Notes under the pieces: generated by a model
The model's input: only the letters and a program-made list of their open reading frames with translations
The model's database searches: none
What the model was told of the DNA's origin: nothing
In this document: in pieces, positions 1,870 through 14,000 of the stretch
How positions within the stretch are numbered: the first letter of the stretch is position 1
How the letters are laid out: every line of letters begins with the position of its first letter
NCBI RefSeq assembly: GCF_003346815.1
Contig: NZ_CP031217.1
Span: 2,480,001 to 2,544,000, forward strand
DNA length: 64,000 nucleotides
Origin: Halarcobacter bivalviorum
GTDB taxonomy: Bacteria; Campylobacterota; Campylobacteria; Campylobacterales; Arcobacteraceae
Direction of reading: 5' to 3'
Made by a program: the position numbers and the translations under genes

Positions 1870-1881
1870 AATTTCTCACTT

Positions 1882-1908
1882 TTAGCACTTGTAATCTCAA
1901 ACTGCTAA
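1882..1908. promoter_or_regulatory. CIRCE operator (HrcA binding site), start-proximal copy
   Basis: TTAGCACTT, nine bases, then AACTGCTAA. This fits the CIRCE consensus TTAGCACTC-N9-GAGTGCTAA with one internal mismatch between the arms. It overlaps the predicted transcription start of the hrcA promoter, so bound HrcA would block initiation. Confidence 0.85.
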
Positions 1909-1912
1909 AAAC

Positions 1913-1941
1913 ATTATACTATATGAGTGTATAAATGTCAA
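1913..1941 (-). promoter_or_regulatory. Sigma-70 promoter of the hrcA-grpE-dnaK operon
   Basis: On the minus strand there is a perfect TTGACA (1936-1941), a 17-base spacer and a perfect TATAAT (1913-1918). A full-consensus promoter is unusual in this AT-rich genome, where -35 boxes are generally weak. The predicted start falls near 1906, inside the start-proximal CIRCE. Confidence 0.85.
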
Positions 1942-1948
1942 GTTGTTT

Positions 1949-1975
1949 TTAGCAAAAGATAAAGAAAAGTGCTAA
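1949..1975. promoter_or_regulatory. Second, degenerate CIRCE-like element upstream of the -35 box
   Basis: TTAGCAAAA, exactly nine bases, then AAGTGCTAA. The right arm is intact and the left arm keeps TTAGCA, with three mismatches to a perfect inverted repeat. It lies just upstream of the -35 hexamer, so the promoter is bracketed by two candidate HrcA sites. Confidence 0.5.
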
Positions 1976-2064
1976 TTTCTTTTAAAGTGCCCTTTTTTAA
2001 ATGCTTTAGTTTGATATAAAGTTAAAGTAACTATAATTAATAAAATATAATCAAAGAGCTTAAA

Positions 2065-3015
2065 ATGAAAAAATTTACTGCTATTTTTGTTCTATTATCT
2101 TTAAAAGTATCTCTTTTTGCTGCTGCAGAATTTGTTACTATTGGAACAGGAAGTGTTACAGGAACTTACTACCCAACAGGTGGTGCAATTTGTAGATTAG
2201 TTAATAAATATAAAAAAGAGACAAGAATAAGATGCTCAGTTGAATCAACTGGTGGTTCTATTTACAATATAAATGCTATAAATATAGGAGAACTAGATTT
2301 TGGTATAGCACAATCAGATGCTGTTTATCAAGCAATTAAAGGTGAAAAAAACTTTAAAAATACTCCAGTTAAAAAATTAAGATCTGTTATGTCTATTTAT
2401 CCAGAGCTTTTAACTTTAGTTACTAGAAGCGATGCCAATATAAATTCTATTGATGATATAAAAGGAAAAAGAATAAATATAGGAAATTTAGGTAGTGGAA
2501 ATGAGACTACAGTTTCTAATTTATTAACACATTTAAATATTCAGAAATCTGAACTATCACAAGTTGGAAGATTAAAAGTTGGGGAAGCACCTGATGCATT
2601 AAGAGATGGAAAACTTGATGGATATTTTTATATGGTGGGACACCCAACAGCAAATATTAAAGATGCTTCAAGTTCTACAAATATCAAACTTGTACCTATA
2701 AGAGGAGAAAAGATTGATAGCTTTATTGAAAAAAATCCTTTTTATGTAAAAGGAGAAATTCCAGCTGCTATTTATAATGGAGTATCTACCACTATTCCTA
2801 CTTTTGGAGCAAAAGCTGTATTAATTACGAGTTCAGATGTAAGTGATAAAGCAGTATATACTTTAGTAAAAGCTATTTTAGAGAACTTTGAAAAATTTAA
2901 ACAATTACATCCAGTGTATAAATATATTACAAAAGACTCTTTACTTGAGGGGTTAAATGCTCCTTTACATGATGGAGCAGTGAAGTATTATAAAGAAAAT
3001 AACTTTATTAAATAA
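2065..3015 (+). CDS. TAXI-family TRAP-type periplasmic solute receptor (orphan)
   Basis: This 316-residue protein has a Sec signal peptide (MKKFTAIFVLLSLKVSLFAAA) and the TAXI-family opening FVTIGTGSVTGTYYPTGGAI, followed by the STGGSIYNINAI and FGIAQSDAVY segments. TAXI receptors normally deliver small organic acids or amino acids to TRAP permeases. No DctM/DctQ or fused 4TM-12TM permease gene is adjacent. It is convergent with a response-regulator/histidine-kinase pair 12 bp away, which raises the possibility that it is a periplasmic sensing partner of that kinase. Its ligand cannot be read from the sequence. Confidence 0.88.
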   Translation: MKKFTAIFVLLSLKVSLFAAAEFVTIGTGSVTGTYYPTGGAICRLVNKYKKETRIRCSVESTGGSIYNINAINIGELDFGIAQSDAVYQAIKGEKNFKNTPVKKLRSVMSIYPELLTLVTRSDANINSIDDIKGKRINIGNLGSGNETTVSNLLTHLNIQKSELSQVGRLKVGEAPDALRDGKLDGYFYMVGHPTANIKDASSSTNIKLVPIRGEKIDSFIEKNPFYVKGEIPAAIYNGVSTTIPTFGAKAVLITSSDVSDKAVYTLVKAILENFEKFKQLHPVYKYITKDSLLEGLNAPLHDGAVKYYKENNFIK

Positions 3016-3022
3016 AGTTATT
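2998..3022. terminator. Convergent hairpin, likely bidirectional terminator
   Basis: Perfect 10-bp inverted repeat AATAACTTTA/TAAAGTTATT with a 5-base loop, followed on the plus strand by a T-rich run (3022-3037). It overlaps the stop codon of the TAXI gene and lies just past the end of the convergent regulator gene. The stem is AT-rich, so it may be weak. Confidence 0.45.
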
Positions 3023-3027
3023 CTTTC

Positions 3028-3747
3028 TTATTTTTTTAATTGCTTTTCGATTATGTATCCATAACCTTTATGTGAGATAATAAAGTCATCTTCTTTAACT
3101 TTATCTTTTAATCTTTTCATTACTGTTCTAAATGCAGAATCATTTGTGTTTACATCATTCCAAACATCTTGTTTGAATTTCTCTACAGGAACAACTTCTC
3201 CTAAATTATCTATTAATACTTTTAAAATATCTAACTCTTTTTTAGATAGTTTTACAATAGATTCTTGATTATAAAGTTTGTCATTTTCCACATCATATGT
3301 ATATCTTCTATTTAGAGCAATTAAAACTTCATGGGTATTTTCTGAAGCAAAATCAGATAATACTTCCTCTTTTGCTTTTTTAAGCATATCCATCATATTA
3401 TCAATATTTAATGGTTTTACAAAATATCCTAATACTCTTAAGTTGATTAATTTAAGTAAATCATCTTCATTTTTATGTGCACTTACAATAATAAATCTCT
3501 GATTTGGAACTAACTCTCTAATATCATCAATCATTGAGATACCATCTTTATTTGGCATTTTTAAATCAGTTAATACTAAATCAAAGTTTTTATTCTCTTT
3601 AAAATCTCTTTTAAAGATATTGCTAGCCTCTTGTCCATCACAAGCAACAACAACTTCATCAAAAATTGTATTAAGATAAAAAGATAAGGTTTTTCTTGCT
3701 ACGTCTTCATCTTCAACTAATAATACTCTAGTTTTATAGTTTTTCAT
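3028..3747 (-). CDS. Two-component response regulator, OmpR/PhoB type
   Basis: An N-terminal receiver domain (LLVEDEDVARKTL, phospho-acceptor Asp in VLTDLKMPN, the switch Ser in IIVSAH and the Lys in YFVKPL) is followed by a C-terminal winged helix ending in ISHKGYGYIIE. It is therefore a DNA-binding regulator partnered with the kinase encoded 38 bp upstream. A longer start at 3759 is open, but no ribosome-binding site precedes it. The ATG at 3747 sits just after GGGAAGAG and is preferred. The target genes are unknown; the facing TAXI gene is the obvious candidate. Confidence 0.9.
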   Translation of the reverse strand: MKNYKTRVLLVEDEDVARKTLSFYLNTIFDEVVVACDGQEASNIFKRDFKENKNFDLVLTDLKMPNKDGISMIDDIRELVPNQRFIIVSAHKNEDDLLKLINLRVLGYFVKPLNIDNMMDMLKKAKEEVLSDFASENTHEVLIALNRRYTYDVENDKLYNQESIVKLSKKELDILKVLIDNLGEVVPVEKFKQDVWNDVNTNDSAFRTVMKRLKDKVKEDDFIISHKGYGYIIEKQLKK

Positions 3748-3785
3748 CACTCTTCCCATTATGATTTCATTATTTTATTATATAC

Positions 3786-6365
3786 TTAAAGTGGTAAAAT
3801 AATAGTAAAAACTATACCATCTTTAATATTTTTAGCAGTAATGCTACCATTCATATTCTTTTCAATAATTGTTTTTGCCATATATAGCCCTATTCCCGTA
3901 CCTTGGTCTTCAAACTTAGTTGTAAAGTATGGTTCAAACATTCTTTCCATAACCTCTTTATTTACTTCACCACAATTGTTTTCTAAAGAAATATAGACAT
4001 TATTTTCTTCTCTTTGAATTTTTATTTTTGTTTCTGCTTTAAATTTTTTGTCTTTACTTTTTACTAAAGCTGCATCATTTGCATTGTTTAGAATATTTAA
4101 AATAACTTGTTGAAATTCATTTTTATAACTTAGTATTTCAATACTATCTCCACTAACTTCAACTCGCATATTTGTTTTTTCAAGCTGAGTATCTACAATT
4201 TTTATACAAGACTCAATAGACTCTTTTAAATTAAATTTAACTTTATCTTTTGTTGGTTGATAAAAATTTCTAAAATCATCAATAGTTTGAGACATATAAT
4301 CAATTTGAAGTTTTGTATCTGAAATAATGTCTTCAATATCCTCTTTTTTTAGATTTTCATAATTGTCTCTAATAAAATGAGTTAATAGATTGATATTATT
4401 TAAAGGTTGTCTCCATTGGTGTGCTATATTTCCAAGCATCTCTCCCATTGCAGCAAGTTTACTTTGATGAACTAAGATTCTATCTTTTTCAATATTTTTA
4501 GCTAACTCTTCTTCTACTTTTAGTTTTAACTCTTCTTCTGTTAGCTTCATTTTTGTAATATCTGTTATATAACCATAAAGATGAGTCACATTTCCAAAAT
4601 CATCTTTTAAGAAGATAGTTCTATTAAATACCCATCTAATAGTTCCATCTTTTTCAATAACTCTATATACTTTTGTAAAAGACTTTTCATCTTTTATAAG
4701 TGCTTTTCCTAAATCCTCTTGTAACTCTTTAGAGTCATCTTTATGTACAAAGTTTAAGAAACTTTCTCTTTTATTTTCAAAATCTTTTGTTGCATAACCA
4801 AAAGAACTTATTGATTTAGAAACATATTCAGGAGTTAACGTCTCATCATTTTTCCATTTAAAAATAACTATTCTTCCATATTCAACTAAAAGATCAACAT
4901 ATTGAAGCTCTTTTGAAAGCCTCTTTCTTCTTTCAATGTCCATTGACATCATTAACATTCTTTTAGGTCTTTTTTCTTTATCTCTAAAAGCTTTTCCTCG
5001 AACTAAAATCCATTTATATTCATTCCACTTATTTTTAATTCTATATTCACTAATAAAGTGTTCAGTTTTCCCTTCAAGATGTGTTCTAAGCCTATTTTCT
5101 ACGATTGGTCTATCTTCTTGATGAATTAAATTTAACCACTCTTGTAAATTTCTTATTTCACCTTTTTGATAACCAAACATATCCAGCCATTTTCTTGAAA
5201 AAAAGATATTTTTTGTATCTAAATCAATATCCCATAAGCCATCATTTGAGGCAATAATAGCTAACTCATATCTATCTTTCCATTTTTTATACATATTATT
5301 TTTTGTCTCTAATCTTTTATTGTATCTATAGAAAATAGAGTTAATAAATTTTGTAAAAACTGTTGAGGCTAAGATTAAAAAAAGTGCAATTAAAATAACT
5401 ATTGCAATAGAAACAGAGAGTTTAGAATTATATTTATACTCTAAATTTGATAATTTACTAGGTAGAGTATAACTTTTTATTGATACTAAAAAATTATATT
5501 TTGTAAAATTGTAAGTTTTATGGCTTTTACTAATTTCATGTTGAGTCATATATTTTCGTAAAATTTCACTTGAACTATCAAGTCTATCTTGCTCTAAAAT
5601 ATATTTAGCGTTTAACTTTTGACCTTTATTATAATAGTTGTATACATAGCCTTGATTATAATCATAAAACCAAAAATAACTATCACTATAATATTTACTT
5701 TTTTGAACAATTGAATCAAGGATGACTCTTCTAATAGAATCTTCCATATCATCTATTTTAGAAAAAGCTCCTAAATACCAATTCTTATTTGTAATATCTT
5801 TAAAATAACTAAGTCTAATTTTATGGTGTGTTTTATCAATCCAATAGATTAGATTATCTTTTCCAATATAAAGTATATTTTCTAACATGTGTCGTTGAAA
5901 TCTTCGAAGTTCTATTTTTGAGTCAGTTATTACCCTTAGATAATTGATTACATTTTCACCATAGATAATGTTTAATTTCTCTTTATCAAAAATTACAAAT
6001 TCAAAATTACTATCTTTTTCAAGCTCTTTTATAAATTTTTTAATATCTTTTAAACTAGCTTCACTCTTTGAATATTTTAAAAATCCACTTAATGAAGTTA
6101 CTGCATCATTTAAAGCAACCTCTTCCCCATCAAAAGAGGAGTTTGCTTTAAACTTAATATCATTTACATATTGTTCTAAAATATTTCTTTTTTCAAACTG
6201 TTCTTTTTGAGTTAAAAGTTTTTCTTCATTTTTCTGTTTTACTTCAAGAACTGATACTATAACTACCATTGAGATAATTGCAGTTACAAAAACAAAGATT
6301 AAAGGGGTATAGATTAGATGTTTTTTTATATCACTAAGAGTATAAAACTTTCTTTTCTTTAACAT
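3786..6365 (-). CDS. Membrane sensor histidine kinase with periplasmic Cache-like region and two PAS domains
   Basis: The 859-residue protein has a first membrane helix (about 15-37), a roughly 280-residue extracytoplasmic region resembling Cache sensors (for example YSDSYFWFYDYNQGYVY), and a second helix near 315-340. Two PAS folds with PAC tails follow (about 360-480 and 490-610). The dimerisation H-box is IAHQWRQPL (His about 649) and the C-terminal ATPase has N- and G-boxes (ILNNANDA, GTGIGLYMAK). Its ATG overlaps the truA stop by one base (TAATG), so it is translationally coupled to truA. The next gene is the cognate regulator. The signal is unknown. Confidence 0.92.
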   Translation of the reverse strand: MLKKRKFYTLSDIKKHLIYTPLIFVFVTAIISMVVIVSVLEVKQKNEEKLLTQKEQFEKRNILEQYVNDIKFKANSSFDGEEVALNDAVTSLSGFLKYSKSEASLKDIKKFIKELEKDSNFEFVIFDKEKLNIIYGENVINYLRVITDSKIELRRFQRHMLENILYIGKDNLIYWIDKTHHKIRLSYFKDITNKNWYLGAFSKIDDMEDSIRRVILDSIVQKSKYYSDSYFWFYDYNQGYVYNYYNKGQKLNAKYILEQDRLDSSSEILRKYMTQHEISKSHKTYNFTKYNFLVSIKSYTLPSKLSNLEYKYNSKLSVSIAIVILIALFLILASTVFTKFINSIFYRYNKRLETKNNMYKKWKDRYELAIIASNDGLWDIDLDTKNIFFSRKWLDMFGYQKGEIRNLQEWLNLIHQEDRPIVENRLRTHLEGKTEHFISEYRIKNKWNEYKWILVRGKAFRDKEKRPKRMLMMSMDIERRKRLSKELQYVDLLVEYGRIVIFKWKNDETLTPEYVSKSISSFGYATKDFENKRESFLNFVHKDDSKELQEDLGKALIKDEKSFTKVYRVIEKDGTIRWVFNRTIFLKDDFGNVTHLYGYITDITKMKLTEEELKLKVEEELAKNIEKDRILVHQSKLAAMGEMLGNIAHQWRQPLNNINLLTHFIRDNYENLKKEDIEDIISDTKLQIDYMSQTIDDFRNFYQPTKDKVKFNLKESIESCIKIVDTQLEKTNMRVEVSGDSIEILSYKNEFQQVILNILNNANDAALVKSKDKKFKAETKIKIQREENNVYISLENNCGEVNKEVMERMFEPYFTTKFEDQGTGIGLYMAKTIIEKNMNGSITAKNIKDGIVFTIILPL

Positions 6366-12059: not shown

Positions 12060-14000
12060 TTATCCCTTTAAAGAATCATCTATCTCTTTTTTTAAATTTG
12101 TCACAACTTCTTGTAAAGCTTTTTTCATTTTTTCATCAGTTATATTTGAATTAACTAATTTATCTAAATTGCTTTCTCTTTCTTTGAAAAACTTTGCAAC
12201 TGACTTACTCTTTTTATTGTGGTTATACATTAATACCCCAGAAGCAATTAGAACAATTACTAATCTTGCATGCCCTAAAATTGCAGCATAATTTAAAATA
12301 GTAAAACCTGCATAATCAGCAGCATTAATATCAGCTCCTGCTGCAATTAAAAGCCTCGCAATTTTATAATTACCTTTCCACTGAGTATGATGTAAAGCTG
12401 TTCTTCCTTGCTTATCTCTTATTTCTAAACTTGTTTTTTTTGTAAGAAGTTTTTCTACTACTTCAATATCATCAGCCATAACTGCTTTATGGAAAATTGT
12501 TCTTCCATCTTTATCTACAGTATTAATATCAACTCTAAATTTTAATAAGAAAACTAATCTTTCTAAGAAATGTTCTTTTTCTCTTTGATTTACAATTTTT
12601 AAACCATTATCAATCATGAAAGATAAAGGAGTATTCCCTTCCTTGTCTTCTACATTTAAATCTGCACCAGCATTAACTACATGCTTAATTAAGTCTAAAT
12701 TATTCTCATTTACTAAATCAAAAATTAATGTTTTTCCATCAGCTCTTGGCAGATTGATTTTTGGTTTAAACAGAAGCATCTTCTTTAATAAACCAAAATA
12801 ATCCTCTTCTTCTCGTAACTCTAAAAATCTTTTTAAACTTGGTTTTTTATTATTACTTGTAATTAAAACTGCTTCACATAAATCATCAATAACTGTTCTC
12901 TCAGAAAAATCTCTATGATCAATATCTACTCCATTTGCAATTAAATGGTCTATCATATTCATATTTCTAGGACCTTTTAAAACAGCATCAAAAAGAACTG
13001 TTCTTCCTTCATTATCCTGAGCATTAATATCTGCACCAGAAGCTAAAAGAAAATCTATTGTGTCATAATTCTCTCTTTCAACTTCTTTGTATAAAACTGT
13101 TTTTCCTTGTGAATCTGTTCTATTAATCGCAAGTCCACTATCAATTAGAAATCCTGTTAGTTTTAAATAGTTTCTAGTAGGGTCTACAAATCTATATTTA
13201 CCTTCTACTTTTATTTCATCTAATTTAGAGATTGCTAAAATTTTTAAAATTTCGTCAAGAAGAGTTTTATCTGCATAATCTTTAATATTTAGTTTTACCC
13301 CAGCTTCTAATAAAAGCTCAATTGTAGAAATTGCTTGAGAACCTAAAACAACAGCATTAAACAAAACATTTTGTCTTTTTTTATCTAAAATATTTACATC
13401 TATTCCGTTTGTAATTAAATATTTTGTTATATTATCGTCATCTTTTAAAACAGAATGAAATAGTACTGTTTGTCCATTATTATCAACAGTATTTATATCT
13501 TCAATATTATTTACTACTTCTTTTATGATTTCTAAATTTCCACCCTCGACAGCATCAAAAAGAACTGTTCTTCCATAGTGGTCAGTAATAGAAAGGTCTG
13601 GATTATGAGCCATTAAGATTTTAAATACTTTATCATTCTCTTCTAATGCGGCATCTTGAAGTACTGTTCTTCCTGAAGAGTTAATATGATTTACGCTAGC
13701 TCCATTATCAAGAAGGAATCTTATCATCATTCCATCCATCTTATCAGCAGCTTCACTTAATACTGTTTTCCCGTAATTATCCTCAGCATTAATATCAATA
13801 CCATTTTTAATTAATATTTTAATTGATTCAATTCTTCTTTTTGCAGCTAATTCAAATAATAAAGTTCTACCTTTTGCATCTTTTTTATTAATATCAACAC
13901 CGCTGCTTATTAACGATTGGATTTTCTTTTCATCAATATAGTTTTTAAGAAGCTCTTTATGTAAAGCCTCTGCACTATCACCTTTGAACATACCTAACAT
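12060..14000 (-). CDS. Large ankyrin-repeat protein, about 16 repeats
   Basis: The 646-residue protein is almost entirely ankyrin repeats of about 33 residues starting near residue 14. Many open with a GRTVLFDAV- or GKTVL-type loop and end in the GxDINxxD turn. Longer inserts interrupt the array near residues 250-285 and 375-405. No signal peptide is present; a hydrophobic stretch in the last repeat (about 575-600) is followed by a charged helical tail. Ankyrin solenoids bind protein partners, but the partner and role are unknown. An AGGA site precedes the ATG. It sits between a helicase gene and glmU with no functional clue. Confidence 0.85.
   Translation of the reverse strand: MLGMFKGDSAEALHKELLKNYIDEKKIQSLISSGVDINKKDAKGRTLLFELAAKRRIESIKILIKNGIDINAEDNYGKTVLSEAADKMDGMMIRFLLDNGASVNHINSSGRTVLQDAALEENDKVFKILMAHNPDLSITDHYGRTVLFDAVEGGNLEIIKEVVNNIEDINTVDNNGQTVLFHSVLKDDDNITKYLITNGIDVNILDKKRQNVLFNAVVLGSQAISTIELLLEAGVKLNIKDYADKTLLDEILKILAISKLDEIKVEGKYRFVDPTRNYLKLTGFLIDSGLAINRTDSQGKTVLYKEVERENYDTIDFLLASGADINAQDNEGRTVLFDAVLKGPRNMNMIDHLIANGVDIDHRDFSERTVIDDLCEAVLITSNNKKPSLKRFLELREEEDYFGLLKKMLLFKPKINLPRADGKTLIFDLVNENNLDLIKHVVNAGADLNVEDKEGNTPLSFMIDNGLKIVNQREKEHFLERLVFLLKFRVDINTVDKDGRTIFHKAVMADDIEVVEKLLTKKTSLEIRDKQGRTALHHTQWKGNYKIARLLIAAGADINAADYAGFTILNYAAILGHARLVIVLIASGVLMYNHNKKSKSVAKFFKERESNLDKLVNSNITDEKMKKALQEVVTNLKKEIDDSLKG

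Follow-up and report, generated by a model that had tools for sequence, protein, structure and literature searches.

A permease-less TAXI receptor beside a Cache/PAS histidine kinase in Halarcobacter bivalviorum, a possible co-sensor for amino-acid uptake

Introduction

About ten binding proteins that signal to kinases have been characterised (PMC9602780). Here we describe a locus of Halarcobacter bivalviorum in which the gene of a TAXI solute receptor lies, without a TRAP permease gene, next to the genes of an OmpR-type response regulator and a large membrane histidine kinase. It is located in the 64-kb stretch of DNA that was analysed, called the window hereafter (bases 2,480,001-2,544,000 of the complete 2.68-Mb genome). 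The genome is labelled G000, and other G numbers denote relatives. By analogy with the systems described below, from which we also infer receptor-kinase contact, we consider the chances about even that a transport receptor has become a dedicated co-sensor of a kinase controlling amino-acid uptake.

In CuaD-CuaS-CuaR of Ruminiclostridium cellulolyticum, a binding-protein gene likewise lies beside a two-component pair, is separate from that of the transporter's binding protein and has been proposed to encode the sensor part. That receptor is of the ABC sugar type, its ligand is cellobiose and contact was shown by experiment (PMC10384115), whereas the present receptor is a TAXI protein whose permease has probably left the locus. 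BctC of Bordetella pertussis is also a secondary-transporter receptor that acts on a neighbouring kinase, BctE, controlling uptake genes; it belongs to the TctC family, recognises citrate and retains its full transporter (PMC5812351, PMC9602780), in contrast to the TAXI receptor without permease. A TRAP receptor takes part in a kinase pathway in Rhodobacter sphaeroides (DctP with DctS/DctR, cited in PMC8276074), but its permease is present and it is of the DctP type, which is unrelated in sequence to TAXI (PMC12344293). LuxP-LuxQ and TorT-TorS pair a dedicated binding protein with a membrane kinase as well, in other receptor families and with other ligands, and there the contact has been solved (PMC6321045), while here it is predicted.

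Within the TAXI family, the glutamate receptor VcGluP of Vibrio cholerae shares its mutated ligand-site residues with the window receptor (see below) but has a TRAP membrane component (PMC11574862). TAXI-GltS of B. pertussis is likewise a TAXI receptor without TRAP permease; its gene is, however, coupled to gltS (PMC12344293), and no GltS was found in G000. The original prediction for this locus held that a TAXI receptor as kinase co-sensor is little described. We recognised no description of such a role in the literature searched, in which subscription papers were mostly out of scope.

Results

The locus comprises the following features.

2065..3015, + strand: TAXI solute receptor, 316 aa, permease-less (TIGR02122, 352 bits against a curated cut-off of 84)
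3016..3027, no strand: 12-bp gap between the stop codons of the TAXI and regulator genes; a fused TRAP permease gene (about 2.1 kb) lies at this place in relatives
3028..3759, - strand: OmpR-type response regulator, 243 aa (Response_reg and Trans_reg_C; aspartate D65 at the expected position)
3786..6365, - strand: histidine kinase, 859 aa (helix, periplasmic Cache-like domain, helix, two PAS domains, HisKA with H649, HATPase)
1870..2064, + strand: hrcA-TAXI intergenic region with the TAXI promoter region, lacking tandem 11-bp repeats and a GGAG ribosome-binding site

The gene names hrcA and, below, truA and grpE are putative assignments that take position into account. Re-reading and profile searches bore out the coordinates, strands and families given in the original prediction, together with the convergence of TAXI and regulator genes 12 bp apart (measured between stop codons) and the lack of an adjacent TRAP permease, none being found between TAXI and regulator. 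The N-terminus of the receptor has a signal-like stretch and the protein is predicted to be exported; its AlphaFold2 model had a mean pLDDT of 89.9. The kinase matched two PAS_3 stretches, HisKA and HATPase_c, and its dCache_2 match was slightly below the Pfam cut-off (25.3 vs 26.5 bits). In the model of the kinase sensor (mean pLDDT 82.5, pTM 0.59) a Cache-like domain lies between two helices, and the top Foldseek matches were Cache sensors at E ~1e-3 with low TM-scores, that is, weak fold matches. The predicted periplasmic domain covers roughly residues 45-310.

We searched 104 genomes of the family with the receptor, kinase, regulator and fused permease, and the loci were then read; gene places refer to the matches listed. 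The conserved order in Arcobacteraceae is hrcA, TAXI, TRAP permease where present, regulator, kinase, truA. Thirty genomes had TAXI, fused permease, regulator and kinase (7 in the genus of the window genome; G095 on two contigs), and in G080 a 706-aa fused TRAP permease separates TAXI from the regulator. TAXI, regulator and kinase without permease were present in 16 genomes (G000, G054, G056, G059, G061, G062, G063, G067, G068, G075, G087, G092, G096, G097, G098 and G099), eight of which belong to the genus of the window genome; one cultivable relative lacking the permease is Poseidonibacter lekithochrous (L133). The receptor gene was conserved beside kinase and regulator in 46 genomes, 45 times on one contig and once on split contigs. 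The permease-less adjacency, described originally for the window alone, recurs at this position between hrcA and truA in 15 other genomes of the family and is not due to chance; a single-strain oddity was rejected, as the same layout occurs in many genomes of the family.

Other arrangements also occur. TAXI and permease without this kinase were present in G074, G084 and G085, and only the regulator remains beside truA in G032, G033 and G034. The kinase of G035 is split in two frames, with no close TAXI found, and the contig of G076 ends beside the regulator. G086 (53 N in the receptor region) was left out as unresolved, and so were the additional TAXI copies of G088 and G089, which adjoin truncated or broken kinases. 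In G057 (L053:5752-8770) about 3.4 kb of other genes, including a transposase-like fragment, lie between permease and regulator.

Of 47 records that were not identified as Arcobacteraceae (L147-L202, from 80 of 107 records, minus L154, L155, L157, L182, L183, L192, L194, L197 and L201), 40 have a related TRAP beside TAXI, although record titles do not establish in every case an origin from outside the family. Relatives elsewhere thus mostly have TAXI with TRAP, which suggests that the permease was likely lost from the locus rather than gained; gain was disfavoured on the same count. The word orphan in the original prediction fits the receptor as it now stands but not its origin, since it appears to derive from a TAXI-TRAP transporter whose permease gene is missing here. 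By parsimony the permease state changes 3 times on the receptor tree (kinase-linked rows) and 9 times on the TruA+HrcA+RR tree (four genomes with a solo TAXI gene included), both being quick trees without bootstrap. The receptors of G000/G061-G063 and G054/G056/G067/G068 cluster together and their neighbouring genes do not; the G057 receptor is close to that of G058, and its kinase is closest to the G000 group. This conflict between receptor and flanking-gene trees makes recombination at the locus likely. We claim about three or more changes of permease state from these trees.

Selection was estimated as dN/dS by the Nei-Gojobori method on hand-chosen pairs, some of them with dS near or above 1. 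For 8 pairs within two permease-less subclades of the genus, dN/dS of TAXI was 0.049-0.139, that of the kinase 0.034-0.159, of the regulator 0.023-0.075 and of truA 0.079-0.212. TAXI values were 0.087-0.114 in 4 pairs of permease-less g19 genomes and 0.14-0.23 in 3 pairs of solo-TAXI genomes. The ratios indicate that the permease-less receptor is under purifying selection within subclades, and its gene was intact in all 16 permease-less genomes counted.

Six residues mutated in VcGluP (Y45, S75, Q93, E125, Y200 and M201; PMC11574862) correspond to Y35, S65, Q83, E114, Y189 and M190 of the window receptor, all six identical as matched by hand count on the alignment. They are identical in 37/37 permease-linked, 15/16 permease-less and 4/4 solo receptors, the exception being G087 with I for M201; in the genus, all eight permease-less genomes retain the six. 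To judge from these residues, the ligand of the window receptor is probably L-glutamate or a close relative.

Tandem 11-bp repeats (YAAYTTNTAY) were found upstream of TAXI in permease-bearing loci, with three perfect units in G002. Each TAXI promoter was scored over three units and compared with 100 dinucleotide shuffles of itself. All 30 permease-bearing promoters scored (reached by at most 6 shuffles, 25 of them by at most 1), partly by construction because the consensus was derived from this set; the absence from permease-less and solo promoters, where 0/20 scored (lowest shuffle count 11), is not by construction. Among nine TAXI-TRAP promoters unlinked to the kinase, two scored (G084 and the second copy of G059) and seven did not. 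Whole-genome scans, TAXI promoters included, gave 60 matches against 22 for the reversed pattern at up to 3 mismatches in 22 genomes with the regulator, and 6 against 6 in four without it. At up to 2 mismatches the numbers were 30 against 9 (56 genomes with regulator) and 3 against 2 (48 without). G000 alone had 3 matches at 3 mismatches (control 0) and none at 2, and no repeat box lies within the window.

Thirty livK-type promoters outside the consensus set were compared with 200 shuffles each (G054, G057 and G060 of the genus were not among the 30). All 13 from the genus of the window genome scored, each being reached by no more than 2 of 200 shuffles. The remaining 17 comprised one promoter at 2, seven in all at 10 or fewer, and ten above that. 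The two worst belonged to G035, with its split kinase (180 of 200), and to G033, where the kinase is missing (199 of 200). Boxes also adjoin genes for aspartate ammonia-lyase, SstT and a basic/polar amino-acid receptor (box on the opposite strand), and one lies between genes identified by eye as those of a DctP receptor and a glutamate synthase. Others have no amino-acid link: the dCMP deaminase/accBC region (four genomes), uracil phosphoribosyltransferase and further sites. The other TAXI-TRAP operon of G000 is preceded by a box only in G000 and G061 (22 of 27; 2 and 0 of 200 shuffles); in the remaining 11 of the 13 genomes none was found (44 or more shuffles), and two further loci had no match. 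As the G000 and G061 boxes are homologous and several promoters were inspected, this is suggestive only. A box at an NSS symporter gene of G000/G061 was not counted, being on the strand opposite to the gene, whose own strand scores like shuffles. The results support the view that genomes with the regulator carry the repeat box at amino-acid uptake genes. An OmpR-type regulator would use tandem direct repeats at its target promoters; such repeats were found, distributed as expected, and it is plausible that they are the operator of this regulator.

A paralogous kinase (mostly 41-47% identity) was found within 10 kb of a TAXI gene, whose product has 27-31% identity to the window TAXI, in 24 of 25 cases among the matches listed; in the exception, G033, the two are on different contigs. 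A TRAP permease is also present at 22 of the 24 loci, two of which (L064 and L065) were read. The box was not convincing at two such loci (G066 and G091; 14 to 200 of 200 shuffles) and was absent at the second TAXI of G093 and G099. Elsewhere, TAXI without TRAP lies beside unlike kinase-regulator pairs, with all three genes on one strand in L201:5145-8942 and divergent in L178:479-3861.

Discussion

The ancestral locus would have encoded a TAXI-TRAP transporter under regulation, with a receptor that took part in uptake and probably also in signalling. With the permease gene gone in the window lineage, the receptor would have been retained as a dedicated periplasmic co-sensor. It would close on binding L-glutamate or a close relative, and the ligand-loaded form would act on the Cache domain of the kinase, in the manner of LuxP/LuxQ, TorT/TorS, BctC/BctE and CuaD/CuaS. 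The kinase would then alter phosphorylation of the regulator, with a sign that, like the docking, we infer, and the regulator would bind the tandem repeats and set transcription of amino-acid uptake genes such as livK. Of the features expected of a binding-protein-dependent two-component system, a conserved receptor-kinase-regulator adjacency and, by model, a periplasmic sensor domain in the kinase were found.

A fuller scenario is tentative and, in our judgement, somewhat improbable as a whole: permease loss made TAXI a dedicated glutamate co-sensor of the Cache/PAS kinase more than once in one family, its promoter left the regulon of the kinase, and the regulator shifted to other amino-acid transporters, which in this species and G061 might include the TAXI-TRAP transporter that remains.

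Several points weigh against a co-sensor role. G020, G023, G024 and G026 have TAXI alone between hrcA and truA, without kinase, regulator or permease, which shows that the receptor can persist where the kinase is gone. In G041 and G042, kinase and regulator remain with no TAXI beside them. Between the two permease-less subclades dN/dS was higher (TAXI 0.15-0.23 in 3 pairs, kinase 0.19-0.24). With a Cache domain of its own, the kinase may bind a ligand unaided. The permease-bearing set was the source of the repeat consensus, which was derived by eye; a protein other than the regulator may bind the boxes, and the window TAXI, having lost its own repeats, is not visibly under the regulator. The co-sensor role originally proposed is thus partly supported. 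Indirect support is strong (permease loss with receptor, regulator and kinase retained, purifying selection, the ligand site and the paralogous kinase near a second TAXI lineage), but four relatives keep the receptor without the kinase, and the contact is predicted by analogy.

It is possible, though we think it unlikely, that the kinase detects a small ligand by itself, with the Cache domain as direct sensor, and that TAXI feeds another permease (the fused TRAP far away, a TRAP of the DctQM type or some unrelated symporter). The Cache-like domain would permit direct sensing, a TAXI protein working with a non-TRAP permease is on record (TAXI-GltS; PMC12344293), and G000 has DctM-type permeases and one fused TAXI-type permease above the family cut-off elsewhere. 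The window receptor itself has no fused DctQM permease beside it, as a TAXI-TRAP transporter would. However, the fused permease of G000, at a distance of about 1.7 Mb, immediately follows a TAXI gene of its own, and no TRAP permease elsewhere in the genome is clearly paired with the window receptor, in agreement with the original prediction. The curated fused-TRAP model gave no fused TAXI-type permease above cut-off in G054, G056, G062, G063, G067, G068, G075, G020, G023, G024 and G026 (two of these assemblies, G075 and G020, being incomplete). Among the eight genomes of the genus that lack the permease at the locus, six have none, and G000 and G061 one each. GltS (PF03616) had no match in G000 or any of these eight genomes and was found in 1 of 36 genomes searched (G026), so it was rejected as a replacement permease in G000. 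G059, G087, G092 and G096-G099 have a second TAXI with TRAP elsewhere, and uptake may have moved to that copy there.

The complete TAXI-TRAP pair of G000 (L040:8566-11327; G000:C1:760565-763326) lies behind a LysR-type regulator gene. A third TAXI gene (L039:7113-8390) encodes a 425-aa protein with a C-terminal extension, which is hydrophobic at its start and again near residue 325. No permease adjoins this gene; similar 430-aa forms occur in several relatives. In Vibrio zhanjiangensis (L196:4318-8354) TAXI occurs without TRAP, and an ORF resembling GltS by eye lies on the opposite strand, about 1.8 kb upstream.

Another explanation, which we find rather more doubtful, treats the receptor as a relic that is disappearing in the wake of permease loss, with minor or no function for now, and its adjacency to the kinase as inherited. 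Several permease-less lineages have drifted at alignment columns that are fixed in permease-linked receptors (e.g. 63, 142, 183, 228 and 284). Mean identity to 16 outgroup receptors was 60.1-63.4 for the 37 permease-linked receptors and 53.3-62.5 for 20 permease-less or solo ones, of which 15 were further from the outgroup than any permease-linked receptor and five overlapped their range. Many have lost the repeats and the GGAG site, and the four genomes with TAXI alone, with their dN/dS, may point the same way. GGAG was present within 60 nt upstream of TAXI in 28/30 permease-bearing, 4/16 permease-less and 0/4 solo loci, and within 25 nt in 23, 4 and 0, respectively, some starts being misplaced; its rarity in permease-less loci would suit a sensor required at low levels, but equally decay. 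The intact gene, the low dN/dS within subclades and the retained ligand site speak against a relic.

That the receptor serves another sensor, such as a chemoreceptor, would account for the four genomes with TAXI and no kinase, and binding proteins stimulate chemoreceptors in several bacteria (PMC6321045), but the 45 single-contig loci and the paralogous kinase near a second TAXI lineage make it very improbable.

Three stages of one locus can be compared among present-day relatives: the transporter together with the kinase, the receptor together with the kinase, and the receptor by itself. They amount to a natural experiment in how a nutrient receptor becomes separated from transport and is retained, as proposed here, for sensing. 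The TAXI family is thereby a candidate co-sensor family, with ligand, operator and target list predicted and directly testable.

Other features of the window

The kinase gene overlaps the next gene, truA, by 1 base, and the TAXI gene is divergent from hrcA-grpE. Two inverted repeats (TTAGCAnnn-N9-nnnTGCTAA) lie between hrcA and TAXI at 1882-1908 and 1949-1975 and are conserved in eight relatives. They resemble CIRCE elements, which would place the TAXI promoter within reach of HrcA sites. At 12060-14000 a 646-aa protein is encoded that apparently consists of ankyrin repeats over nearly its whole length (by eye).

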